Assembly: GCF_027942865.1 (NCBI RefSeq)
Contig: NC_134524.1
Span: 7,551,536 to 7,615,535 of the forward strand
Direction: 5' to 3'
Source: Odontesthes bonariensis
Lineage: Eukaryota > Chordata > Actinopteri > Atheriniformes > Atherinopsidae
DNA: 64,000 bases
Position 1 is the first letter of the stretch. Every line of letters starts with the position of its first letter. Positions 4,441 to 64,000 of the stretch are shown piece by piece. A model generated the notes under the pieces. It saw nothing but the letters and a program-made list of their open reading frames with translations. It did no database searches and was not told where the DNA came from. Made by a program: the position numbers and the translations under genes.

Positions 4441-4457
4441 GTGACATCAGAAGATGT

Positions 4458-5053
4458 AAAAGTCTGTTGCTCATAGGCTTTTATTTTGTAAAAGTCTGCT
4501 GCTCACAGGCTTTTATTTTGTAAAAGTCTGTTGCTCCCAGGCTTTTATTTTGTAAAAGTCTGTTGCTGTCTGCTGCGGAACCGGAAAAGAAAGTAATTCG
4601 CAGATCCACCAAACATGGAGAAGGGTACGGAACTTTTACTCGGCCGTTTTCATTTTAAAGTTCCTCCAGACGGCGGAGTCGACAGAACCAAAGTCATCTG
4701 TAAACACTGCCAAGTTGAATTGTCTTCTCAGCGTAGTAGTTCCAGTCTAAAATATCACTTCAAGGCAAAACACACAACTGATAGCAGCAAGTCATTCAAG
4801 GAAACAGACAGTGGAGCGAGGCTTCTACATAAAAACTACAGAAAGATGCTGATGTTAAAAGTGTGTTTGCACAAAAAATGTTATGGCACTTTCATTCATA
4901 TGGCAGCACATTTAAAATAAAACTAAATGCTAAACGCTATACACTACTTTTGGATTCATTTTTGGATTTTGCGTACAAATGCGATTAATCGTGATTAATC
5001 AGGGAAATCATGTGATTAATTAGATTAAACATTTTAATCGTTGCCCAGCCCTA
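4458..5053 (+). mobile_element. BED-finger hAT MITE, copy 1 (left end missing)
   Basis: This begins inside the ~30-bp subterminal repeat (GTAAAAGTCTG...CAGGCTTTTATTTT, about four units) and ends with the terminal GCCCAGCCCTA. It contains an intact 101-codon frame (4615-4920) with a CKHC...H-x4-H zinc finger of BED type, as found at the N terminus of hAT transposases. There is no transposase catalytic domain, so the element is non-autonomous. It matches copies at 11147, 33259 and 43184. The left terminal inverted repeat is absent. Confidence 0.75.
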
Positions 5054-5647
5054 GTAAATTGTTAATTTGTGGATATTTGCCATTTAACTGACCACAGCTA
5101 TTCTCCCTAAAAGAAATGAACACTTTTTTCATTGTATTTTCCAGGTTTTCGTCTCATTTTGACTCAAACTCCAGTAACTGAAACGCATCTCTCTGCTTGA
5201 CTCGAGGTCACATTTGCATCCCTGACATGAACTGACAACGGTCGATGGAGCACTCTTTTAATGTCACGAATGCCGGTCTCCATCTTGATAAATGGATTGC
5301 TGACTGCTGTCAATACAACAGATCAAAGGCCCAAATCAATAGGTAATTTGTCTAAGCGAGAGGTTTTCCAAAGTCAGGGACTGTCCCCTCAGCACAGCAG
5401 GGAAAGAGACAAACTCCTTCTTCAGTTCAGCCTCCACGTGCTGATAGGAAGCTCCAAAGGGATCCGCTAGTTTCTCATTCAGAAAAATGGTTGTGTTGAA
5501 TCACTAAAAAGGCATTTCTCTATCTTCCTCTGTGATTTTCAGTGTCTTTGTCGTCTTTTTTTTCTCTTTTTGTGGGATAGTTTGTCCACATAGTCAGTCT
5601 GAGGCTCTTTTGTTGTCATATCTCAGTAGCTGTCTGACACATATGGT
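5054..5647. other. Intergenic, nothing recognised
   Basis: No exon, repeat or regulatory signal is convincing here. The last 100 bases become T-rich as they approach the minisatellite. Confidence 0.5.
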
Positions 5648-7595
5648 GGTTGTTTTGTGTCTTTTGTTGGTATCTTCTTCTTCTTCTTGGTTGTTTTGTG
5701 TCTTTTGTTGGTATCTTCTTCTTCTTTTTGGTTGTTTTGTGTCTTTTGTTGGTATCTTCTTCTTCTTTTTGGTTGTTTTGTGTCTTTTGTTGGTATCTTC
5801 TTCTTTTTGGTTGTTTTGTGTCTTTTGTTGGTATCTTCTTCTTTTTGGTTGTTTTGTGTCTTTTGTTGGTATCTTCTTCTTCTTTTTGGTTGTTTTGTGT
5901 CTTTTGTTGGTATCTTCTTCTTCTTTTTGGTTGTTTTGTGTCTTTTGTTGGTATCTTCTTCTTCTTCTTGGTTGTTTTGTGTCTTTTGTTGGTATCGTCT
6001 TCTTTTTGGTTGTTTTGTGTCTTTTGTTGGTATCTTCTTCTTCTTTTTGGTTGTTTTGTGTCTTTTGTTGGTATCTTCTTCTTCTTTTTGGTTGTTTTGT
6101 GTCTTTTGTTGGTATCTTCTTCTTTTTGGTTGTTTTGTGTCTTTTGTTGGTATCTTCTTCTTCTTTTTGGTTGTTTTGTGTCTTTTGTTGGTATCTTCTT
6201 CTTCTTTTTGGTTGTTTTGTGTCTTTTGTTGGTATCTTCTTCTTCTTCTTGGTTGTTTTGTGTCTTTTGTTGGTATTTTCTTCTTTTTGGTTGTTTTGTG
6301 TCTTTTGTTGGTATCTTCTTCTTCTTTTTGGTTGTTTTGTGTCTTTTGTTGGTATCTTCTTCTTCTTCTTGGTTGTTTTGTGTCTTTTGTTGGTATCGTC
6401 TTCTTTTTGGTTGTTTTTTGTCTTTTGTTGGTATCTTCTTCTTCTTTTTGGTTGTTTTGTGTCTTTTGTTGGTATCTTCTTCTTCTTTTTGGTTGTTTTG
6501 TGTCTTTTGTTGGTATCTTCTTCTTCTTTTTGGTTGTTTTGTGTCTTTTGTTGGTATCTTCTTCTTCTTCTTGGTTGTTTTGTGTCTTTTGTTGGTATCG
6601 TCTTCTTTTTGGTTGTTTTTTGTCTTTTGTTGATATCTTCTTCTTCTTTTTGGTTGTTTTGTGTCTTTTGTTGGTATCTTCTTCTTCTTGGTTGTTTTGT
6701 GTCTTTTGTTGGTATCTTCTTCTTCTTTTTGGTTGTTTTGTGTCTTTTGTTGGTATTTTCTTCTTCTTTTTGGTTGTTTTGTGTCTTTTGTTGGTATCTT
6801 CTTCTTCTTTTTGGTTGTTTTGTGTCTTTTGTTGGTATCTTCTTCTTCTTTTTGGTTGTTTTGTGTCTTTTGTTGGTATCTTCTTCTTCTTTTTGGTTGT
6901 TTTGTGTCTTTTGTTGGTATCTTCTTCTTCTTTTTGGTTGTTTTGTGTCTTTTGTTGGTATTTTCTTCTTCTTCTTGGTTGTTTTGTGTCTTTTGTTGGT
7001 ATTTTCTTCTTCTTTTTGGTTGTTTTGTGTCTTTTGTTGGTATCTTCTTCTTCTTTTTGGTTGTTTTGTGTCTTTTGTTGGTATCTTCTTCTTCTTTTTG
7101 GTTGTTTTGTGTCTTTTGTTGGTATCTTCTTCTTCTTTTTGGTTGTTTTGTGTCTTTTGTTGGTATCTTCTTCTTCTTTTTGGTTGTTTTGTGTCTTTTG
7201 TTGGTATTTTCTTCTTCTTCTTGGTTGTTTTGTGTCTTTTGTTGGTATTTTCTTCTTCTTTTTGGTTGTTTTGTGTCTTTTGTTGGTATCTTCTTCTTCT
7301 TTTTGGTTGTTTTGTGTCTTTTGTTGGTATCTTCTTCTTCTTTTTGGTTGTTTTGTGTCTTTTGTTGGTATCTTCTTCTTTTTGGTTGTTTTGTGTCTTT
7401 TGTTGGTATCTTCTTCTTTTTGGTTGTTTTGTGTCTTTTGTTGGTATCTTCTTCTTCTTTTTGGTTGTTTTGTGTCTTTTGTTGGTATCTTCTTCTTCTT
7501 TTTGGTTGTTTTGTGTCTTTTGTTGGTATCTTCTTCTTTTTTTGGTTGTTTTGTGTCTTTTGTTGGTATCTTCTTCTTCTTTTTGGTTGTTTTCT
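5648..7595 (+). repeat. 41-bp minisatellite array, about 48 units
   Basis: The unit starts GGTTGTTTTGTGTCTTTTG and ends TTGGTATC plus a (TTC)n-TTTTT tract. Most units are 41 bp; others lose 3 or 6 bases by changes in the TTC tract. The + strand has only about one A per unit, giving extreme strand asymmetry. Because 41 is not a multiple of 3 and the unit has no stop codons, three plus frames and one minus frame stay open for hundreds of codons. They are artefacts, not genes. Variant units (GGTATCGTC at about 5991, 6392 and 6593; GGTATTTTC pairs near 6956 and 7202) show block duplication. Confidence 0.95.
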
Positions 7596-11146: not shown

Positions 11147-11795
11147 TAGGGCTGGGCAACGATTAAAAGTTTTAATCTAATTAATCACATGATTTCCCTG
11201 ATTAATCACGATTAATTGCATTTGTACGCAAAATCCAAAAATGAATCCAAAAGTAGTGTATAGCTTTTAGCATTTAGCTTTATTTTAAATGTGCTGCCAT
11301 ATGAATGAAAGTGCCATAACATTTGTTGTGCAAACACACTTTTAACATCAGCATCTTTCTGTAGTTTTTATGTAGAAGCCTCGCTCCACTGTCTGTTTCC
11401 TTGAATGACTTGCTGCTATCAGTTGTGTGTTTTGCCTTTAAGTGATATTTTAGACTGGAACTACTACGCTGAGAAGACAATTCAACTTGGCAGTGTTTAC
11501 AGATGACTTTGGTTCTGTCGACTCCGCCGTCTGGAAGAACTTTAACATGAAAATGGCCGAGTAAAAGTTCCGTACCCTTCTCCAGGTTTGGTGTATCCGC
11601 CGATTACTTTCTTTTCCTGTTCCACAGCAGACAGCAACAGACTTTTACAAAATAAAAGCCTGGGAGAAACAGACTTTTACAAAATAAAAGCCTGTGAGCA
11701 ACAGACTTTTACAATAATAAAATAAATAACAAAACCTGGGTTAATGCGCGATAAAATATTTGTCGGCGTTAAATAATTAAATAATCCCAGCCCTA
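11147..11795 (-). mobile_element. BED-finger hAT MITE, copy 2
   Basis: Both ends are present: TAGGGCTGGGC at the left and GATTAAAT...CCCAGCCCTA at the right. The internal BED-finger frame is on the minus strand but has lost the ATG used in other copies (CTG instead), so the open frame starts later, at 11480. The 8 bases on each side differ, so no target-site duplication is visible. The right flank runs straight into a Tc1 fragment. Confidence 0.75.
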
Positions 11796-27323: not shown

Positions 27324-30300
27324 TCAGGAGGTGTTGGTGATGGGTTTGTATTTCTTGAGGCGTGTCCACTGTCCTGTGGAATAGTTCATTTCGAAGACTG
27401 TGTCCACCAGCATGGTGGTGCTGCCGGTGCCGTCGGCTTTGGGCAGAACCTCTGTGTGCTCGCTCAGCTTGATCTGGATGATGTCACCCTGCTCCGGGCA
27501 CGGGTTCTCTGCGAGGGGCACAGGAGAGAGCGGGCTGGTTAGTCGAGCGCTTTATCAGAATTTCATTTTACCGACTCTTCGTAGACAAATGGAGGCTTTA
27601 TGTGAAGACATAAGAGTGGGGGACGGGCGAATAGGCGCCTCTTGCCTCCCAATTATAAGACTAGGGCTGTGTTCGAAACCGCATACTTCTCCTACTACTT
27701 ATACTAACATTTTGAGTTAGTAAGTGAGTTTGAGTAAGCGAGAAGTTCCCGGATGCATACCAGATTCGCCGAATTGTTGGGTATGCATCATGAGGTTACT
27801 ACTCATACTCAAACTACCCAAGATGCAACGTAACGTGACGTCGCCGATCGTCATTTCCTGTCAAAACGGCAGTTTCAAGCTAGCTACAGCGAGGGTAGGT
27901 TCACTTCCTGTTTTCAAAACAAAAGCACCAACTGTATCGTAATGGCTTTCCCTATGATAAAAGACAACGGGTATTTTATTTTGTGAAAATAACCGGAAGT
28001 GCGTTGCTCACTGCGGCTAGCTTTAGTAGCGCCGAATTCGTGGGAACAGAATTGTAAATAGCCGGTATTTTGTCAGGTTTTCAACACATTGGGGATCTAA
28101 ACGACTACTTTCTCACCTGAAAATGTTTCAAATGTTGCTAACGTTTACAGAGTTTAGAGCTTTAGAGAAATCAGCTTCAGGCCGGCTGATTTCGGCTCGG
28201 GTAGTAACGAAATGCATTGTGGGTAAACGCTCTGCATACTGTCTGATCGATCAGTATGTAGTAGGGTTGGGACTTTTCAGGAATTTTCATGTTCGAATAT
28301 TGATAACGTTATCAAACAATTAATCGATTATTCACTAAAGCATGACGTCACTTGTCCCCGCTCAGAGCCATCGACATGGTTTTGCCTTCACCATCACCCC
28401 CACACAAATTAAGGTCAAAACACGCACACGACAGGACTGATTTATCAAAAATAGATTTATTAAGAAAATATGCCATTTAGTAGTCAACTTTAGATTATCA
28501 CAGTGCATTATGGCATCCGACGGATTTTTAACAAGTAGGCTATGCAAACGCATCACTGCCTGATCACTTTGAAAAAAAAAGTAGGCTACAGCCTTGACTA
28601 AACCTTTGAAAAATGAAAATAATAATAACATTGGAAAATAATGACATTAAGAAATAACACGGTCTAATGACTGTATTCTGTTAAACTTCAGCTCAACGCT
28701 GGCGGCAATTAGCCTATTTGACAATTGAGTTTTAACTTAGATTACGTTACCGTAGGCTACGAACGAAATTGACGGTCATCAAATTGGACATAAATACACA
28801 ATAATGAGATCAAAACCTGGCTTATTGCCATATTGTATCACTGAACTGTTAAAGCTGACTGTCGTGCCAACGTATTGGCCAGATGCAGGCTACCTTACAG
28901 GCTACAGAAAGGTAAGAAATGGGCTAACAAACAACAGTAGGCTAATAAACAACTGCCTGCACGGACTGCCTGCATACATTATCTATCACAGACTCGCCCA
29001 TGTGTTTTTGTTCATAAAAATCTGGATGGAATACGGTATCCTGGCTCATTAAATCCCATAAGTTCCCGAAAACCCTCGCCGTCAGCCACACTTAAAGGCA
29101 ACATATCTTTCACAATCATATTTACTATGCGTTTGGTGATTTCATTAGCTCGCTTGTCATCACACATCCTCCTAGCTAGTGTAGCCTGAATGGTTGGCTG
29201 CCCTCCGCTTGAGCTGGCTTCGCCGGAATTAACGTTCGGATGTACATTTTTTAGATGATATATTAGTGGAGACGTTGCACTATGGTAGGTAAACAGGGCC
29301 TCACAATAATTACATTGGACTTTATCGTCTTTTCTAGAGAAACGGTCCCACACTGCACTTCTCCTAGCCCGCTTCATCACTGCTAGTCTGTTGTCACCCA
29401 AGATACCGGACGTTATAGCTGTTCTCATAATGCGCGCGACTAGAACAATTATTTATTAGGCTTAGAATTTTATTCTAATAAATTCTTACAAACAAATAAT
29501 CGATCACCAATTATTCATTACCAACCCTAGTATGTAGTATGCGGTTTTGAACACAGCCACAGACTTCTCATACTGACAGAATATGTTGTGTTTCTGCGCC
29601 GGTATGGAACTCAGTGACCCCCCCCCCCCACGTACCTCTGGATCCAGCCATGAAGCCCAGGATGAGCGCCTTCTCTGGTCTGGTGACCTTGTTGGCCGTC
29701 TTGAACATCTCCTGGGCCGCGTACATCTGGTCTCTCTGAGGAGCACAAACAGAGCGAGCTTTAAAACGCAGGGAAGGAAAGATAAAACAAAGCCGCTCCT
29801 TTTGTGGCCTTTACCGTGAGCGAGAGGTTCTTTTTGGGCTGGGGCTGTGGCGGCGTAGGGGCCGGCGTCGGCGTGGGGGTCTGCGGCGTGCTGGGAGGCT
29901 GGGTGGGGGTCTCCGGCTGGCTGGCGGCGGTGGCAGCCGGGGGCCCGTTGCTGGCCGGGGTGGAGGCCGGCGTGCTGGGGGATGTGGGGGTGGCGGGGTT
30001 TGCTGCGGTGCTTGCGTTGTACATCGGCGTCCTCTGCTTGTACTGGTTGGGAAGGGTGGAGTTGGCACCATTGCCCGCTGTGGCCGACTCCTCCGGCTGG
30101 CGAGCAGCCTGCAGCGTGTCCCGACCCGAACCGCCGGCGTTCGCTGTGGAGGAAAGTTGATGAAAAGATGCAATGAGCTCAACGTAAGCGGGGAGTTAGC
30201 GACGTTCCCTTCACACCACGCTCAGGACGGCGTGTTGACCTCACTGACCTGGCTGTGCCTCGGAGCTGGGAATGTAAGAGGAGGAGGGAACCATGCTGGG

Positions 30301-31741
30301 CGTGGCTGGTAGGTAGCTGGTCGATGGCAGAGGATTCTCGTTGAGCGCCCCCAGTTTCTGAAGAAGAAAAACAAAAAGAGTGATGATGGCTGTGTTCGAA
30401 ACCGCATACTTCTCCTACTACTCCTACTAACGTTTTGAGTTAGTATGCGAGTTTTAGTAAGCGAGAAGTTCCCGGATGCATACTAGATTTGCCGAAATGT
30501 TGGGTATGCATCATGAGGTTACTACTCATACTCAAACTACCCAAGATGCAACGTAACGTGACGTCGCCGATCGTCATTTCCTGTCAAAACGGCAGTTTCA
30601 AGCTAGCTACAACGAGGGTAGGTTCACTTCCTGTTTTCAAAACAAAAGCACCAATTGTATGGTAATGGCTTTCCCTATGATAAAAGGCAACGGGTATTTT
30701 ATTTTGTGAAAATAACCGGAAGTGCGTTGCTCACTGCGGCTAGCTTTAGTAGCGCCAAATTCGTGGGAACAAAATTGTAAACAGCCGATATTTAGTCAGG
30801 TTTTCAACACGTTGGGGATCTAAACGACTACTTTCTCGCCTGAAAATGTTTCAAATGTTGCTAAAGTTTACAGAGTTTAGAGCTTAAGGGAAATCAGCTT
30901 TAGGTCAGAGCGAAATGCATTGTGGGTAAACGCTCTGCATACTGTCTGATCGATCAGTATGCAGAATGGAAGTATGTAGTATGCAGTATGCAGTATGTAG
31001 TATGTAGTATGGAAGTATGCAGTATGTAGTATGCAGTATGTAGTATGTAGTATGCAGTATGGAAGTATGCAGTATGTAGTATGTAGTATGCAGTATGCAG
31101 TATGAAGTATGCAGTATGGAAGTATGCAGTATGGAAGTATGCAGTATGGAAGTATGCAGTATGCAGTATGTAGTATGTAGTATGCAGTATGCAGTATGTA
31201 AGTATGCAGTATGCAGTATGTAGTGTGCAGTATGTAGTATGCAGTATGCAGTATGTAGTATGCAGTATGGAAGTATGCAGTATGCAGTATGGAAGTATGC
31301 AGTATGCAGTATGTAGTATGCAGTATGCAGTATGTAGTATGCAGTATGAAGTATGCAGTATGGAAGTATGCAGTATGTAGTATGCAGTATGCAGTATGAA
31401 GTATGCAGTATGGAAGTATGCAGTATGCAGTATGTAGTATGCAGTATGTAGTATGGAAGTATGCAGTATGTAGTATGTAGTATGGAAGTATGCAGTATGT
31501 AGTATGCAGTATGTAGTGTGCAGTATGTAGTATGCAGTATGGAAGTATGTAGTATGCAGTATGTAGTATGCAGTATGCAGTATGCAGTATGAAGTATGCA
31601 GTATGGAAGTATGCAGTATGCAGTATGTAGTATGGAAGTATGCAGTATGTAGTGTGCAGTATGTAGTGTGCAGTATGCAGTATATAGTATGCAGTATGCA
31701 GTATGTAGTATGCAGTATGCAGTATGTAGTATGCAGTATGT

Positions 31742-31775
<34 letters not shown>

Positions 31776-34700
31776 GAAGTATGCAGTATGCAGTATGCAG
31801 TATGGAAGTATGCAGTATGCAGTATGTAGTATGTAGTATGCAGTATGCAGTATGTAGTATGGAAGTATGCAGTATGTAGTATGTAGTATGGAAGTATACA
31901 GTATGTAGTATGTAGTATGGAAGTATGCAGTATGCAGTATGTAGTGTGTAGTATGCAGTATGCAGTATGTAGTATGCAGTATGTAGTATGCAGTATGCAG
32001 TATGCAGTATGCGGTATGCAGTATTTAGTATGTAGTATGCAGTATGTAGTATGTAGTATGCAGTAGGTAGTATGCAGTAGGTAGTATGCAGTATGTGGTG
32101 TGCAGTATGTGGTATGCAGTATGTAGTATGCAGTAGGTAGTATGCAGTATGTGGTATGCAGTATGTAGTATGCAGTATGCAGTATGTAGTATGCAGTATG
32201 CAGTATGTAGTATGCAGTATGTAGTATGCAGTATGCAGTATGTAGTATGCGGTTTCGAACACAGCCGATGATCATGACGGAGACTCAGAGAAAGAGACGA
32301 AGTGAAGAACCTGAGCAGAAACGAGGCCGGCGGCGTAGTCTGGCGTGGTGTTCTCCACCACCGCCTCTTCTTTGGTTGCTTTCTCTCCAGGATCCGTTTC
32401 TACATCAGAAGGAAACATCACGTAAGCATCAGCACCATCACATATGTCCGTTTGGTGTGACAGACGGATAAATTACCCAGAGTCTTCCTTCTCCTCTTGG
32501 CCTCTCTTCCGGCTCCCACCATGTCCAGCTCTGAAATATCTAAAAGCTGAGCAGAAGAAACCTTCTTTTAGATCATGAAATGCGCTCAGAGAGCCACGAT
32601 GGATAACCAAACGACTCCGGACGAACCTTGACCCCTCGCTCTTTCCGCAGGGGCGTCCGCGCGGGAGCGATGGGAGTTCGGTTACTGGGAGGGCTGAACA
32701 TGCTGGGGGCGGTGGGACTGCGAAACGGGGCTTTGGGAATCCCCTTCAGAGGAGCTGTGATGCAGACAGCAAAATGAACGATGGTCGTCTTTAACAGTAA
32801 AACAGCGGCTCTGAGGAGCATTTATGGGCCTGAAACTCACTTGTCGTGTCGATCTTCTTCACCAGTCCTCTCCCTTTGGCGTGAAACGGCACCCCGGCCG
32901 TCTTTTTCAGCTGCTGTGCCGTCTCTGTAGCTGGAGCAGAAGGGAAAGGAAACAGTTTAAACAAATAAAAACAGGTAAACCTTCCTGTAAAAGAAGCACT
33001 GCAGGAGGAACCGTGTTTCAGTCACGATTTTAAGATGTAATAAATGTCAAAACGTCGTTTCTGAGCGTCTGATTTTCACTTTAACTGCATTATTAGAAGG
33101 GGGGGATATGACTCCGGTTAAACTTCACTCTCAAAGTACAACACTCAACAATAACATAAAAGAATAAAATTAGAAATAGAAAGAAGCTGCAGCGAGGACT
33201 ATAGCCTCTGTACATGGGGCGCCTTCTTAACACACTACGCCACAAACCACCCCTGTTTTATTATTTATTTTATTTTGTAAAAGTCTGTTGCTCACAGGCT
33301 TTTATTTTGTAAAAGTCTGTTGCTCACAGGCTTTTATTTTGTAAAAGTCTGCTGCTGTCTGCTGCAGAACTGGAAAAGAAAGTAATCGGCGGATCCACCA
33401 AACATGGAGAAGGGTACGGAACTTTTACTCGGCCGTTTTCATTTTAAGGTTCTTCCAGACGGCGGAGTCGACAGAACCAAAGTCACCTGTAAACACTGCC
33501 AAGTTGAATTGTCTTCTCAGCGTAGTAGTTCCAGTCTAAAATATCACTTAAAGGCAAAACACACAACTGATAGCAGCAAGTTATTCAAGGAAACAGACAG
33601 TGGAGCGAGGCTTCTACATAAAAACTACAGAAAGATGCTGATGTTAAAAGTGTGTTTGCACAACAAATGTTATGGCACTTTCATTCATATGGCAGCACAT
33701 TTAAAATAAAACTAAATGCTAAAAGCTATACACTACTTTTGGATTCATTTTTGGATTCTACGTACAAATGCGATTAATCAGGGAAATCATGTGATTAATT
33801 AGATTAAACATTTTAATCGTTACCCAGCCCTATTAGAATCGAAATAAGTGTTTGGATGCAGAGACTTGCTTCTGCAGACTTGCTAACCGACTCCTGCCTT
33901 TCAACAAGCTGCAGTTCAGCCGTGTGCTTTGAGTTGTTGCCAGGCTAATATTTAAAGTTTGTGGCCAAGTCAGGAAACTCATCATTAGGGATGGGAATCG
34001 AGAACCGGTTCCGATTGGTTCAATCCATCGACATCACTAAAAAGGAATCTGACAGCAACATGTAACCTGTGCCACACCATCCTTTCATGCAAGGGGGCAA
34101 ACACCAACTACACGCTAAAGCATTTGTTGACGGCGTACGGCATAAAGCATCAGGAGTGCCGTGTATTTGACGCTCTACGCCGCCAATCATCCAGTCCTAC
34201 ACGGTCCATCAGTAGCTTTGTATTCTAATTTAATCCTGTAAGAGATCCAGGATCCAGAGAACAGTTCTACATTTGTTTTAACAGACACACTTTCATTTAT
34301 TTTAATGGGGCAAAAGTTTCATAATAAGTATGAAGACGCTTTGAGTAGCTGTAAAATACTGTCATGGGCTGTGTTCGAAACCGCCTACTACTCCTACTAC
34401 TACTAACTTTAACTTTTTTTTAAGTTCCCGAATGCATACTAGATTCTCTGAAATGTTGGGTATGCATCATGAGGTTACTACTCATACTCAAACTACCCAA
34501 GATGCAACGTAACGTGACGTCGCCGATCGTCATTTCCTGTCAAAACGGCAGTTTCAAGCTAGCTACAATGAGGGTAGGTTCACTTCCTGTTTTCAAAACA
34601 AAAGCACCAATTGTATCGTAATGGCTTTCCCTATGATAAAAGGCAACGGGTATTTTATTTTTGTGAAAATAACCGGAAGTGCGTTGCTCACTGCGGCTAG

Positions 34701-37663
34701 CTTTAGCAGCGCCGAATTCGTGGGAACAAAATTGTAAATAGCCGGTATTTTGTCAGATTTTCAACACGTTGGGGGATCTAAACGACTACTTTCTCACCTG
34801 AAAATGTTTCAAATGTTGCTAAAGTTTACAGAGTTTAGAGCTTAAGAGAAATCAGCTTCAGGCCGGCTGATTTCGGCTCGGGTAGTAACGAAATGCATTG
34901 TGGGTAAACGCTCTGCATACTGTCTGATCGTTGAGTATGCAGTATGGAAGTATGTAGTAAGCAGTTTGGAACACAGCCACGGTGTCTCCCAACATGGTCA
35001 GAAAATGTGACATTTGAAGTCCTGAGGACAGTAAAAACTAAGTTTTATGCTGGTTTGCTGGACACAGCAGCAGCAGCTCTGTGCTGCAGGATGTTCAGCG
35101 TCGGTTAGGACGCGACTTTAAATGCTTTTCGACATCCGTAGTGTGAAGGAAGGCAGCGTCTACAAGCTGAATTTTAAAGGAACTTACATTTCTGTAGCAG
35201 TTCTGCTCTGAGCGTTGCACTCTTGGGTTTCCTCTTGAGCTGGAAATGTTTGACGGGAGGAGTAAGGGGTCCCACTAAGGTGGTCAACGCACTCTTGTTC
35301 AGGTACTGGCATTCCAGGGGAAGCATGGCGGACGCCTCGCACTCTCCCACTGAAGAGGAGGAGAAGAAGAAATTAACCACAGGACAGACCAACTAACCTG
35401 TGCAGTTAGAGGAAGGGTTCCCAAACCTTTCTCCCTGAGCTCGCCAAGAATGTCCTGCACGTTCGGATTCTGCTCCTCCAAGTCCAGATTGAGAGAGCCG
35501 GTCTCCGGGAAGGACTTGAGGATGTCTGCGACCATCAGCACCCAGGGCTCCGAATCCACCGTAGCCAGCTGGATGATCTCCGACAGGGCCTCCTTCATCT
35601 GGCAGAAGAGAAGGCAGCTTGGTCACATCACCTGAGGTCAGCTTTCAGTTCAGCAGGTGCAGTTTAAACACAGGTGGGACCACCTTCCTTCTAACAGTAT
35701 CGACTGAGGCCGAGAAAACATCCAAGACAGTCAGCTGCCTCCAACTTCCTCTGTGTGAGTGGAGCTGAATCCACCGCACAGACCCCTTTAAATTACTTAA
35801 ATGGTGACTTTGTGTCACAAAGTGTTCAAATAATGTGACACAGAGCAGCTTTATGAGGAATTTAACTGTATTAATATAACTTTGGAGCATGAGCAGAGCT
35901 TCCAGGTCCATTTAGGTTTAGCTGAGTGTATCCCTGCACTGTGATTTGAGCCCAAACTGCGTTATATGGGCGTAATAAGCCGTTACATTCACTGTAACTG
36001 GACCACCAAAATTAATATAAGTTATGGTTTATGTTAGCAGACAATCCCAGCTTATTACAGCCGGGAAAAGATGATTGTTTTGATGTTATTACAGTTACAA
36101 GGTGCTCAACTAACTACATTTACAGACCGCTGTACAACCACTGAAGCAATTTTCATCAGCAAAACAACTTTATCAGCAGATAAAAAGCACATTTGCTGCT
36201 TCAGACCTCCTATTTGAGACATTTCTGTCACATAAAACCAGAAACTGGGGATTAAACCTCAGAAGATTTTCGTTTTACCCAAATAAAAGCCAAACAAATC
36301 AGTTTTGAGAAAAAGAGCATCTCAACTTTATAATAATTCATTTTATGATTTCTCAGATTTACTTAATTACAGCTTAAAGTAGCCGATGATTCAATAGTAA
36401 ATGGTCCAAACCAGTAGGTTGTTGTCAGTACTTATAGAGTCTAAATAAACCTTTTTCTCATCTATTTAACCAAGACGCAAAATAGCGCAAACACAAGAAA
36501 ACACCAAATAATATGTGCATGTTTACGTCATTAAAGGGAACCCGTCAGATCATTTTATCATCACAGTCATGACGGGCCAAATAGAGGCTGAACAGTCATT
36601 TAAAACCACACAAACATGCTTTTAATACCTTTGAAATTGGTTTAAATTAGGAAAACAGCTCCCGCAAGAATATTTAATTACACTTTTCTATATTAGGTTC
36701 TTGGCTAAATGTGGTGCAGGCTTCCTCTGATATAAGCAAAGGAGGAATTATGGACATATAAAGGCAGTTTAGTGCACTTGTGTTATAAATGAACAACAAC
36801 CCAAAATGTAAAAAACGCACTTCTTGGGGGGGGGGAGCGCGTAAAGTCTCGCGATAAAGGAAAAAAAGAGTCTATCACACGTTTGGTTTTACATTTGTAT
36901 GACTCCAAGGGATGAACTCTCTGGGAGCTGGGCGCGTTACACTTTATGAGTGGATACTGGTGACGGGTTTTGGGCAGCGGAACAGGTGATATGTCGGACT
37001 GAGAGTTGGTACCGCCCTCCTGCGTCCGTCCCACCACAATGTCTGCGACTGGCGCCAGGCTAATGCTGCACAGGCAGCCGGGGAAGTTAGCGGCTGAGAA
37101 AAACAAATATGAACACGCCGAGAAAAGTAGTCACAGAGGAACCCGTCAGTTGGGGCGATTCGTAACCAAGTTGTCGGCTCGAAGCGAAGCTGAGGTGACA
37201 ACAAGAAGGTGCGCTGCGGATTTAAACACCAGCCTGCCGCTTCTCGCGTTAGCTAGTTAGCGGTTAGCTAGCCGCCAACAACAACCGGCGTTAAGTCCCG
37301 AGGCAGGCTTTCCGCGAGCACGCCGCGCACTCGCGGTGTTTTGGTTCAATGTGAAAGCCGCGCGGTGAACTCCTCTGTCGGCTGTGACCTGAGAGCGAGC
37401 AGCGTCCCCTTTTACCTGCCAGGCTAGCGGCTAGCTAACGCCAAGCGACCCACCTCGTCCATGGTCCGCCTGGGAAGATGCAGCATCCCGAGCAGCAGCT
37501 TCAGCTTCACCGGCGGCGACAGGCTGGAGAAGCACAGCCGTATGTTGTCGATCACCGACAGGGTGAGGAGCGAGGCGATGCTCGGAGGCGTCCACAGCTC
37601 GTCCGTGGATCCCAGTTTGTTGTGCAGCCACAGGCCGGTGTCGCTGTCCTTCATCGACGCCAT
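27324..37663 (-). CDS. nelfa: Negative elongation factor A (11 exons)
   Basis: Coding exons in transcript order are 37663-37454, 35598-35427, 35349-35188, 32930-32841, 32754-32627, 32546-32477, 32399-32311, 30357-30249, 30143-29815, 29735-29636 and 27508-27324. They join in phase to 548 codons including the stop, near the usual vertebrate length. The product is the NELF-A subunit, which with DSIF holds RNA polymerase II paused near promoters. The N terminus (MASMKDSDTGLWLHNKLG) and the conserved PWVLMVADILKSFPETGSLN and PLTPPVKHFQLKRKPKSATL blocks carry the HDAg-like Pol II-binding region. The Pro/Thr/Ala-rich exon 9 is a low-complexity linker that seems longer than in mammals. The C terminus (MLVDTVFEMNYSTGQWTRLK) is highly conserved. 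Introns 3, 7 and 10 hold MITE insertions; intron 7 carries a 1.3-kb minisatellite. The start is fixed by the family N terminus in exon 1. Confidence 0.95.
27665..29558 (+). mobile_element. MITE family 'GGCTGTGTTCGAAAC', copy A, interrupted by a hAT element (NELFA intron 10)
   Basis: The left terminal repeat is GGCTGTGTTCGAAACCGCAT (27665); the right end is its complement ending at 29558. The ~630-bp MITE is split after 28261 by a 1268-bp hAT insertion. The internal sequence (TGGGTATGCATCATGAGG, CGTAACGTGACGTCGCCGAT and so on) matches copies B-F in this window. No open reading frame is shared by the copies, so it is non-autonomous. Confidence 0.85.
28262..29529 (-). mobile_element. hAT element with transposase N-terminal remnant, nested in MITE copy A
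   Basis: The ends TAGGGTTGGGA and ACCAACCCTA are flanked by an exact 8-bp duplication GTATGTAG (28254-28261, 29530-29537), diagnostic of hAT insertion. On the minus strand, 29428-29012 encodes about 138 residues: a BED finger (VQCNYCEALF...LIYHLKNVHP) and the following hAT helical segment (KRIVNMIVKDMLPLSVADGEGF). The frame then ends and the RNase H-like catalytic domain and dimerisation region are absent, so this is an internally deleted, non-autonomous copy. Confidence 0.85.
30388..32266 (+). mobile_element. MITE copy B carrying an expanded heptamer array (NELFA intron 7)
   Basis: The terminal repeats are at 30388 (GGCTGTGTTCGAAACCGCAT) and, inverted, at 32247-32266. GATGAT flanks both sides (30382-30387, 32267-32272), a possible target duplication. 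The body to about 30956 matches other copies; the rest is the minisatellite described next. At 1879 bp it is about three times the normal family length. Confidence 0.85.
30957..32250 (+). repeat. 1.3-kb minisatellite of AGTATGC / AGTATGT / AGTATGGA units
   Basis: About 180 tandem 7-8-bp units fill the right subterminal zone of MITE copy B. Copy C has only about five such units in the same place and copy D about 23, so the array grew inside the transposon. The unit resembles the inner part of the terminal repeat itself (complement of GCATACT). Long frames read as repeated HTAYCILHTTYCI-type peptides are artefacts of a stop-free heptamer. Confidence 0.93.
33186..33258 (-). mobile_element. tRNA-derived SINE head, fused to hAT MITE copy 3
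   Basis: On the minus strand the sequence reads TTTGTGGCGTAGTGTGTTAA, a degenerate A box, followed by GGCGCCCCATG and CTATAGTCCTCGCTGCAGC. The B box is lost. The same ~75-bp block is next to hAT fragment 5 at 50918-50996, so it travels with some copies of that MITE. Confidence 0.5.
33259..33832 (+). mobile_element. BED-finger hAT MITE, copy 3 (NELFA intron 3)
   Basis: This contains about three units of the GTAAAAGTCTG...CTTTTATTTT subterminal repeat, an intact 101-codon BED-finger frame (33404-33709, CKHCQVELSS...HLKAKH) and the right terminus ACCCAGCCCTA at 33832. The left terminus is replaced by SINE-like sequence. It differs from copy 1 by only a handful of substitutions. Confidence 0.75.
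34367..34978 (+). mobile_element. MITE copy C (NELFA intron 3)
   Basis: A near full-length copy of the GGCTGTGTTCGAAAC family, 612 bp. The right subterminal zone holds only about five AGTATGN units before the inverted terminus GGAACACAGCC. Flanks do not show a clear target duplication. Confidence 0.85.
35599..37453 (-). other. NELFA intron 1, no feature recognised
   Basis: Apart from AT-rich stretches at 35900-36780 and a G run near 36826-36836 I see no transposon end or exon. The last ~450 bases toward exon 1 are CpG-rich and continue the promoter island. Confidence 0.5.
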
Positions 37664-43300: not shown

Positions 43301-44175
43301 CATATGAATGAAAGTGCCATAACATTTGTTGTGCAAACACACTTTTAACATCAGCATCTTTCTGTAGTTTTTATGTAGAAGCCTCGCTCCACTGTCTGTT
43401 TCCTTGAATGACTTGCTGCTATCAGTTGTGTGTTTTGCCTTTAAGTGATATTTTAGACTGGAACTACTACGCTGAGAAGACAATTCAACTTGGCAGTGTT
43501 TACAGATGACTTTGGTTCTGTCGACTCCGCCGTCTGGAAGAACTTTAACATGAAAATGGCCGAGTAAAAGTTCCATACCCTTCTCCATGTTTGGTGGATC
43601 CGCCGATTACTTTCTTTTCCTGTTCCACAGCAGACAGAAACAGACTTTTACAAAATAAAAGCCTGTGAGCAGCAGACTTTTACAATAATAAAAGCCTGTG
43701 AGCAGCAGACTTTTACAATAATAAGATAAATAATAAAACCTGCGTTAATACCTGATAAAATATTTGTCGGCGTTAAATAATTAACGAGTTAACGCGATAA
43801 TAACGAGTTAACTCGCCCAGCCCTAATCGTAACTCGTGACTCGTCTTAGAATAAATTTAAATCTAAAAGATGTGAAAACCTCCTTTAAAGTTTCATTTAG
43901 CAGATACTGGATGTGTTTCCTGCATGTATTATCCAAACAAGTGGAGTCAGTGTTCAGATTTGATTCTGTTTCTTGTTAGATTTTTGTATTTTCATTCAGA
44001 AACCATCATCTTTGTGTGTTTTCTAAGCGTTTGACTGCTGGGAAAAACACAAACTTCCCTCTCTGGAGCGCTGAGATGCTTGTTTTTTTTCTTTGCCTTG
44101 CAGACGGAGACGCTGGTGCTGAGGGCGGAGAGGAGGGCTCTGTGCGACTGCATGCCCACCAACTCGCTGCGCTGA
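40353..44175 (+). CDS. nicol1: NICOL1 (C4orf48) secreted peptide, 3 coding exons
   Basis: Coding exons 40353-40464, 42286-42374 and 44104-44175 join in phase to 91 codons including the stop. The N terminus (GYIQAAVVLLAVQLVCVGA) is a signal peptide. The mature part carries RPCVDCHAFEFMQRALQDL and ends RTETLVLRAERRALCDCM plus PTNSLR. This is the highly conserved core of neuropeptide-like protein C4orf48, now NICOL1, reported in mammals to act with NELL2 in lumicrine signalling. Four mature cysteines are seen; a further cysteine that I recall in the mammalian middle segment is phenylalanine here (KKTAFNL). The gene lies head-away from NELFA, as in human. The start is chosen because the ATG begins the signal peptide directly after a splice acceptor. 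Confidence 0.92.
40770..42035 (-). repeat. LINE-derived block in NICOL1 intron
   Basis: Several retroelement pieces follow one another: a tail-like segment (40795-40970), a plus-strand 3' tail (41098-41180, near identical to 2331-2420) and an L2-type block (41380-42035) with AGACCTGAGATGGGGTGATA and GTATCAAATGCAGCACCGAG. No intact frame remains. The exact number of insertions is unclear. Confidence 0.5.
42375..43183 (+). other. NICOL1 intron sequence, nothing recognised
   Basis: Between exon 2 and the hAT MITE I see only a G run at about 42991-43000 and no mobile-element end. The stretch ends with the left copy of the MITE's target duplication (43176-43183). Confidence 0.5.
43184..43825 (-). 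mobile_element. BED-finger hAT MITE, copy 4, complete with 8-bp duplication
   Basis: The element starts TAGGGCTGGGCAACG and ends GCCCAGCCCTA, flanked by exact ATCGTAAC (43176-43183 and 43826-43833). It is 642 bp and is the reference full-length copy in this window. On the minus strand it keeps the 101-codon BED-finger frame (43588-43283). The 8-bp duplication places it in the hAT superfamily. It lies in the NICOL1 intron before the last exon. Confidence 0.9.
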
Positions 44176-59625: not shown

Positions 59626-60391
59626 GGCTGTGTTCCAAACCGCATACTACATACTTCCATACTGCATACTACATATTTCCATATTACATACTTCCATACT
59701 TGCATACTACATACTACATACTGCATACTGCATACTGCATACTACATACTTCCATACTGCATACTACATACTTCCATACTGCATACTACATACTGCATAC
59801 TGATCGATCAGACAGTATGCAGAGCGTTTACCCACAATGCATTTCACTCCTGCCCGAGCCGAAATCAGCCGGTCTGAAGCTGATTTCACTTAAGCTCTAA
59901 ACTCTGTAAACTTTAGCAACATTTGAAACATTTTCAGGCGAGAAAGTAGTCGTTTAGATCCCCAACGTGTTGAAAACCTGACAAAATACCGGCTATTTAC
60001 AATTTTGTTCCCAAGAATTCGGCGCTACTAAAGCTAGCCGCAGTGGGCAACGCACTTCCGGTTATTTTCACAAAATAAAATACCCGTTGCCTTTTATCAT
60101 AGGGACTGTGTTCGAAACCGGATACTTCTCCTACTACTCATACTAACTTTTTGAGTTAGTATGCGAGTTTGAGTAAGCGAGAAGTTCCCGGATGCATACT
60201 AGATTCTCTGAAATGTTGGGTATGCATCATGAGGTTACTACTCATACTCAAACTACCCAAGATGCAACGTAACGTGACGTCGCCGATCGTCACTTCTTGT
60301 CAAAACAGCAGTTTCAAGCTAGCTACAACGAGGGTAGGTTCACTTCCTGTTTTCAAAACAAAAGCACCAATTGTATTGTAATGGCTTTCCC
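59626..60391. mobile_element. MITE copy D, split into two oppositely oriented halves (NAT8L intron 2)
   Basis: 59626-60104 is the right half of the GGCTGTGTTCGAAAC family in reverse orientation, with about 23 heptamer units near its end. At ATAGGGA it switches to the left half in forward orientation (60105-60391), which stops at GGCTTTCCCT. The two break points are the same internal site (TCCCT) of the family sequence, so the halves add up to exactly one element. Confidence 0.8.
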
Positions 60392-60392
60392 T

Positions 60393-61004
60393 GGCTGTGT
60401 TCGAAACCGCATACTACATACTTCCATTCTGCATACTGATCGATTAGACAGTATGCAGAGCGTTTACCCACAATGCATTTCGCTCCTGCCCAAAGCTGAT
60501 TTCTCTTAAGCTCTAAACTCTGTAAACTTTAGCAACATTTGAAACATTTTCAGCCGAGTAAGTAGTCGTTTAGATCCCCAACGTGTTGAAAACCTGACAA
60601 AATACCGGCTATTTACAATTTTGTTTCCACGAATTCGGCGCTACTAAAGCTAGCCGCAGTGAGCAACGCACTTCTGGTTATTTTCACAAAATAAAATACC
60701 CGTTGCCTTTTATCATAGGGAAAGCCATTACGATACAATTGGTGCTTTTGTTTTGAAAACAGGAAGTGAACCTACCCTCGTTGTAGCTAGCTTGAAACTG
60801 CCGTTTTGACAGGAAATGATGATCAGCGACGTCACGTTACGTTGCATCTTGGGTAGTTTGAGTATGAGTAGTAACCTCATGATGCATACTCAACATTTCA
60901 GAGAATCTAGTATGCATCCGGGAACTTCTGCTTACTCAAACTCACATACTAACTTAAAAAGTTAGTATGAGTAGTGGGAGTAGTATGCGGTTTCGAACAC
61001 AGCC
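60393..61004 (-). mobile_element. MITE copy E (NAT8L intron 2)
   Basis: A complete reverse-oriented copy, 612 bp, with terminal GGCTGTGTTCGAAACCGCAT at both ends. Only a few heptamer units are present (ACTACATACTTCCATTCTGC). It directly follows the inverted copy D. Confidence 0.85.
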
Positions 61005-63681: not shown

Positions 63682-64000
63682 GGACTGTGTTCGAAACCGC
63701 ATACTACTCCTACTACTCCTACTACTCCCACTACTCCTACTAACGTTTTGAGTTAGTATGCGAGTTTGAGTACTCGAGAAGTTCCCGGATGCATACTAGA
63801 TTCTCAGAAATGTTGGGTATGCATCATGAGGTTACTACTCATACTCAAACTACCCAAGATGCAACGTAACGTGACGTCGCCCATCGTCATTTCCTGTCAA
63901 AACGGCAGTTTCAAGCTAGCTACAACGAGGGTAGGTTCACTTCCTGATTTCAAAACAAAAGCACCAATTGTATCGTAATGGCTTTCCCTATGATAAAAGG
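63682..64000 (+). mobile_element. MITE copy F, cut by the window edge
   Basis: The left half of the GGCTGTGTTCGAAAC family in forward orientation, with an extended CTACTACTCC run after the terminal repeat. It continues to TCCCTATGATAAAAGG at the last base; the right half lies outside the window. Confidence 0.85.

Follow-up and report, generated by a model that had tools for sequence, protein, structure and literature searches.

Both halves of the situation reported here, a tandem repeat borne by a MITE and a minisatellite expanded at chromosome ends, have precedents in Xenopus; in the present case they are joined in one DNA-transposon family and are unusually well replicated. In the Xenopus tropicalis element SINE/tRNA-V, a 52-bp minisatellite is expanded only in subtelomeric copies, for which recombination has been proposed (PMC10794172). 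The likeness is close, with intact elements dispersed genome-wide and minisatellite growth near chromosome ends in both cases. However, SINE/tRNA-V is described there as a retrotransposon with the 52-bp unit in its 3' tail, whereas our family is a DNA-transposon MITE whose 7-bp unit corresponds to the inner edge of the terminal inverted repeat (TIR) and grows at one end, and whose many short unexpanded seeds serve as an internal control (PMC10794172). The Xenopus MITEs Xstir and Xmix (Hikosaka and Kawahara 2004, as cited in PMC9659126 and PMC2872659) are comparable by their description in the citing papers, since lineage-specific short tandem repeats ride on a MITE there as well. Similarly, the account of miDNA4 of X. 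tropicalis (Scalvenzi and Pollet 2014, as described in PMC9659126) has a satellite unit arising within a MITE before its tandem amplification, although miDNA4 is a Tc1/mariner MITE whereas our element displays 3-bp target duplications (PMC9659126). In Drosophila virilis Tetris, tandem repeats of the TIR region (TIR-220) also seed long arrays, but with a 220-bp unit in a foldback element of beta-heterochromatin instead of a subterminal 7-bp one (PMC4079207). Finally, BrickBuilt of Porphyromonas gingivalis is a further minisatellite within a MITE, reported as bacterial with a 23-bp unit present in 19 copies in one strain (PMC4596501). Among the papers retrieved by our literature search, none was recognised as describing the present MITE family, and the heptamer string gave 0 matches.

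The window, i.e. the whole stretch of 64,000 nucleotides from Odontesthes bonariensis analysed here and located at C24:7551536-7615535, contains at least six pieces of this family (Table 1), whose TIR GGCTGTGTTCGAAACCGCATACT finds 11 matches at up to three mismatches where none is expected. The existence of a minisatellite array inside copy B is confirmed. TRF reports a 7-bp period at 30955-32250 with 182.1 copies and 83% matches, and AGTATGNAGTATG at up to one mismatch matches 179 times in the 64-kb window against 0.18 expected. The array (about 1,294 bp) is enclosed between the CATACTGTCTGATCGATCAGTATG edge and the 3' TIR. The preliminary description had named an array continuing past the terminal repeat at 32266 as the case that would speak against it; the array stops at the 3' TIR, which is directly followed by the flank. 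The same description had noticed that the unit resembles the inner edge of the TIR, and indeed the AGTATG core equals CATACT at this edge. Besides, CATACT/AGTATG occurs five times in the body of copy B once the array is removed, versus 0.25 in 2,000 Markov versions (largest 4); a role in transposase binding would be no more than a guess. The heptamer array alone also generates open frames of 461 and 456 codons at 30877-32262 on the minus strand, an artefact that results from the absence of stop codons in the 7-bp unit and may mislead gene prediction.

Table 1. Coordinates of the MITE copies, of the parts of copy B and of its host intron in the window
Feature	Position	Strand	Remarks
NELFA intron holding copy B, 1,953 bp	30358..32310	-	NELF-A is matched across the junction by the exon peptides AAGLVSAQ / KLGALNEN
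MITE copy A	27665..29558	+	Heptamer site interrupted by an insert of ~1.26 kb
MITE copy B, complete, 1,879 bp	30388..32266	+	Both TIRs intact; other genome-wide copies match the body
Left target-site copy GAT	30385..30387	.	GATGAT flanks both sides, hence 3 or 6 bp
5' TIR of copy B, GGCTGTGTTCGAAACCGCATACT	30388..30410	+	23 bp
Conserved body/array edge CATACTGTCTGATCGATCAGTATG	30938..30961	+	Near-palindromic; served as anchor
Heptamer array of copy B	30955..32250	+	181 AGTATGN units (up to one mismatch), with 8-bp GAAGTATG steps
3' TIR of copy B	32244..32266	-	23 bp, 100% complementary to the 5' TIR
Right target-site copy GAT	32267..32269	.	Read from the flanks of copy B
MITE copy C	34367..34978	+	5 units at 34934-34968
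MITE copy D	59626..60126	-	22 units at 59643-59801; 5' half inverted
MITE copy E	60393..61004	-	4 units at 60410-60437
MITE copy F	63683..64000	+	5' part only, continues past the window end; nonamer repeats at 5' edge

Copy B makes up 96% of its NELFA intron, of which 74 bp remain without the element when the splice sites are read from the sequence. The minus-strand peptides GEKATKEEAVVENTTPDYAAGLVSAQ (32311-32388) and KLGALNENPLPSTSYLPATPSMVPSSSYIPSSE (30259-30357) both correspond to NELF-A, with the junction falling at the correct residue, and further exons matching NELF-A are found on the 5' side. Copies B, D, C and E form the size series noted earlier at one subterminal site (181, 22, 5 and 4 units, respectively, at up to one mismatch). 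Its assignment to one intron of NELFA is correct for copy B and fails for the series, as copy C is located between other NELF-A exons and copies D and E are 27-29 kb away from B. In the same gene region, a 101-aa frame at 33404-33709 on the plus strand encodes a BED zinc finger (PF02892, E 2e-8) and is probably a transposase remnant.

In the 945-Mb genome, the TIR was matched 6,099 + 6,086 = 12,185 times at up to three mismatches, against 1 + 0 for a reversed-pattern control. Five successive perfect heptamers were found at 67,161 + 74,554 places (control 0 + 0), copy B contributing 58. Since 22 arrays with a total of 27,108 bp hold 1,297 such places, this one MITE would supply about 3 Mb of heptamer repeat to a vertebrate genome, an extrapolation that is rough because imperfect arrays contain few perfect runs. 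The element has the hallmarks of a MITE, with 23-bp TIRs, a body of ~550-600 bp that is too short to hold a transposase, a high copy number and a target-site duplication, and its head-to-tail units, within the 6-100-bp range and extending over hundreds of bp or more, are those of a minisatellite. The target duplication is 3 bp long and imperfect, with on average 2.11 of three matching bases in 38 elements versus 1.14 after shuffling (largest of 2000: 1.66). Without the elements selected by an ATA flank, the mean is 1.78 versus 0.94 (n = 23), and all three bases match in five of the 23. Duplicated targets include GAT, CAT, CCT, ACA and TTA in the palindromic context A-S-W-C-NNN-G-W-S-T. The 3-bp duplications and their palindromic context suggest, without establishing it, a relationship to PIF/Harbinger, elements whose target is TWA, to which the duplications of this MITE do not conform. 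Genome-wide, 150 of 3,145 candidates gave scored matches to PF13359 (DDE_Tnp_4), which were seen without their surroundings and of which none was linked to the MITE TIR. A 6-bp duplication, raised by GATGAT around copy B and typical of IS3EU-like elements, was rejected, as matches at k = 6 are at the shuffled level in the 38 elements (0.202 versus 0.209) and only k = 3 exceeds it.

Array length was followed in two samples. The ATA sample relies on TIR ends flanked by ATA, an arbitrary choice (168 exact matches, of which 100 were read at least partly), and comprises 48 3' ends and 52 5' ends, arrays of at least 100 bp being called long. The body sample comprises 123 distinct bodies over all loci obtained, with a threshold of at least 150 bp. 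Three 3' ends abutting unrelated or rearranged DNA (L042, L122 and L139) count as short among the 48, while four long arrays without the anchor (L044, L081, L084 and L137) are included in the 48 3' ends and excluded from the 123 bodies. In keeping with the earlier proposal that the MITE carries its own seed, heptamer-like units are present at this site in the 123 sampled bodies. A few AGTATGN units are common to the family, and in a minority of copies they have grown to between 100 bp and more than 3.5 kb. Among the 123 bodies, arrays range from 7 bp to over 3,528 bp and reach 150 bp or more in 19. In the ATA sample, 11 of the 48 3' ends carry at least 100 bp, whereas none of the 52 5' ends exceeds 42 bp, so that growth is one-sided and equal growth at both ends is rejected. 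Copy B, with its 180 units, is not extreme for the family, since two arrays exceed 3.5 kb (no array end was reached after this distance in L020 and L028). At C1:48355627-48365271, variant matches (among 100 of 138) are spread over 9.6 kb. Intermediate lengths are few: 37 of the 48 3' ends are below 100 bp, one is at 100-150 bp and 10 exceed 450 bp. An intact MITE body and TIR flank the array in 15 of the 123 bodies, and the TIRs have usually been retained. Of the four arrays with a 3' TIR but no body edge, two (L081 and L084) run into a truncated MITE body and two (L044 and L137) into unrelated DNA. The flank of L044 resembles what we take to be a retroelement tail; this array was dropped as evidence, as it may simply be interrupted by that flank.

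How far a copy lies from the chromosome end, a property that is invisible within the window, is the strongest predictor of its array length. Each of the 11 long 3' ends in the ATA sample is located within 5 Mb of a contig end, versus 10 of the 37 short ones (Fisher 1.6e-5, Mann-Whitney 3.4e-4). Among the 123 bodies, the fraction of long arrays is 5/7 in the first Mb and then 3/5, 1/13, 3/9, 4/19 and 1/14 up to 5-6 Mb, followed by 2/19 at 6-8 Mb, 0/16 at 8-12 Mb and 0/21 beyond, i.e. 8/12 within 2 Mb and 0/37 beyond 8 Mb. The two long copies at 6-8 Mb are copies B and D of the window, and copy B is somewhat unusual in its distance of 7.6 Mb from the contig end. In a logit model on the same bodies, distance contributes strongly (LR p 2e-5), unlike seed purity (p 0.19) and divergence (p 0.47), and the 30 B-like loci alone show the same trend (p 0.05). 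The effect recurs in searches that yield positions only. Within 2 Mb of an end, we found one of 62 short intact seeds versus 24 of 33 arrays carrying a rare variant that served as a tag (100 of 138 matches of the tag). The seeds were exact 21- and 29-bp forms (24 and 39 matches, 62 usable, the match on C91 being left out); lengths of contigs C22, C23, C26 and C29 were estimated, and the tag favours large arrays, the 33 including L010, from which the variant was taken. Two of the 33 are farther in, on C1 at 5.9 Mb and on C16 at 18.5 Mb. A second variant tag gave 16 arrays; once L044 and L081 were removed as already sampled, the 14 outside the discovery sample were all within 5 Mb, one on C23 possibly being the same as an array from the first tag. 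The 5-Mb and 2-Mb cut-offs were chosen after viewing the data, and the rank tests are independent of them. Taken together, the regions near contig (chromosome) ends are strongly enriched in long arrays, and neither relatedness nor divergence of the body is predictive. Expansion is not strictly limited to ends, as shown by the array on C16 at 18.5 Mb and by copy B. In each of 14 contigs, some with a single array, arrays are confined to one half, a placement that would fit the distal arm of an acrocentric chromosome. Flank GC rises weakly towards the ends (rho -0.30, n = 59) without being clearly followed by array length (rho 0.19, p 0.14).

Copies of the MITE, taken overall, are unevenly spread. 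Among the matches listed, TIRs crowd one end of several contigs, e.g. at 40-46.5 of 48.5 Mb on C1. Interior clusters of the MITE are seen on C2 (26-32 Mb), C13 (15-20 Mb) and C16 (18-20 Mb), where the sampled copies have only short arrays and the C16 cluster holds one tagged array at 18.45 Mb; these clusters are possibly former chromosome ends.

We consider it probable that the best explanation is a common seed near the 3' TIR with position-dependent local growth in recombination-rich chromosome ends. Each insertion would lay down one short seed that is stable in chromosome interiors, while near the ends unequal exchange, gene conversion or break-repair slippage would lengthen it locally, often in blocks; copy B may be one such local expansion. 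Recombination, which is usually high near chromosome ends, would be the driver of growth. In L020, L028, L030, L068 and L129, exact repeats of 209-380 bp within the array (largest of 10 shuffles: 132) point to block duplication, and an internal exact repeat beyond the largest of 10 shuffles is present in 10 of 22 arrays. In copy B, no internal duplication exceeds chance (77 bp versus shuffles of up to 84), and it looks grown in small steps. This last observation, together with the scarcity of intermediate lengths, is what would be expected under the main rival, i.e. slippage operating anywhere once enough pure units are present, with an excess at ends that stems from chromatin or replication timing and not from meiotic recombination. 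In the same vein, interrupted seeds are found in 2 of the 19 long copies versus 36 of the 104 others (p 0.056). We nevertheless find this threshold model unlikely, because purity is no longer a predictor once distance is included, pure short seeds are common and yet almost absent from the terminal 2 Mb, and large exact block duplications misfit single-unit slippage.

Lengthening during transposition, followed by the spread of expanded copies as a subfamily, appears improbable in spite of the frequent long arrays among the 30 loci closest to the body of copy B. On the body tree, the 19 long tips require 17 changes, like shuffled labels (mean 17.9, sd 0.96 over 300 shuffles, 89 of them at 17 or fewer), so that growth looks sporadic; weak inheritance could go unseen on this tree, which is poorly resolved as the 320-bp bodies have little divergence. 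In addition, the nearest short copies of long ones share 88.8-99.4% body identity with them, as illustrated by L018 (1,393 bp) and L136 (28 bp), which are 99.1% identical, and unit make-up varies between arrays as locus-specific mixes. Unit order is common to loci little above chance with some exceptions, which also speak in favour of a spreading subfamily: in seven of the top 25 pairs (231 in total), the exact stretch in common is longer than in any of 10 shuffles, two of these pairs involve copy B, and stretches of up to 118 bp are common to two arrays. Some copying of already grown arrays, limited in extent, may account for them. Age was rejected as a driver, as array length set against body divergence for the 123 bodies, which is close to a check proposed by the preliminary description, gave no relation (rho -0.04, p 0.65). 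The interpretation given in that description is partly supported: the array lies inside a MITE, but nothing shows that the copies of the window are steps in a single growing lineage, their lengths being scattered over the body tree like shuffled labels and their unit order being shared little above chance. An assembly artefact, with wrong array lengths or positions, would be very surprising. Tandem arrays are the hardest sequences to assemble and the lengths given here come from the assembly alone; against an artefact, intact body and TIR surround arrays in 15 of the 123 bodies, unit mixes are specific to each locus and separate tests agree on the effect of position.

Whether sequence or position causes a repeat to grow is difficult to test because a minisatellite is usually one of a kind. 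In this family, near-identical seeds at thousands of places have grown or not, which keeps sequence and age nearly constant while position varies. With about even chances in our view, the family is a natural genome-wide experiment in which the fate of one seed at some 6,000 places reveals how the rate of expansion depends on position, most copies having grown within ~1-2 Mb of one end per chromosome and none of 37 beyond 8 Mb. If true, the MITE marks the regions of the genome in which tandem repeats are generated.

The window holds several further arrangements. In the heptamer site of copy A, the foreign DNA of ~1.26 kb (28265-29526) starts with GGGTTGGGAC, ends with CCAACCCT and is probably another TIR element. 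The segment 59600-61030 is an inverted composite, in which copy E directly adjoins the inverted 5' half of copy D. Copy F displays its own nonamer repeat TACTACTCC at its 5' edge (63702-63742, 4.6 copies), 5' ends elsewhere being short. A 32-33-bp unit in 2.6-3.5 tandem copies at 4455-4567, 11636-11722, 33268-33356 and 43641-43724, in both orientations, is a second dispersed repeat carrying short tandem repeats. Finally, a 41-bp minisatellite occupies 5647-7593, with 48 copies, 95% matches and a higher-order period of 281 bp.
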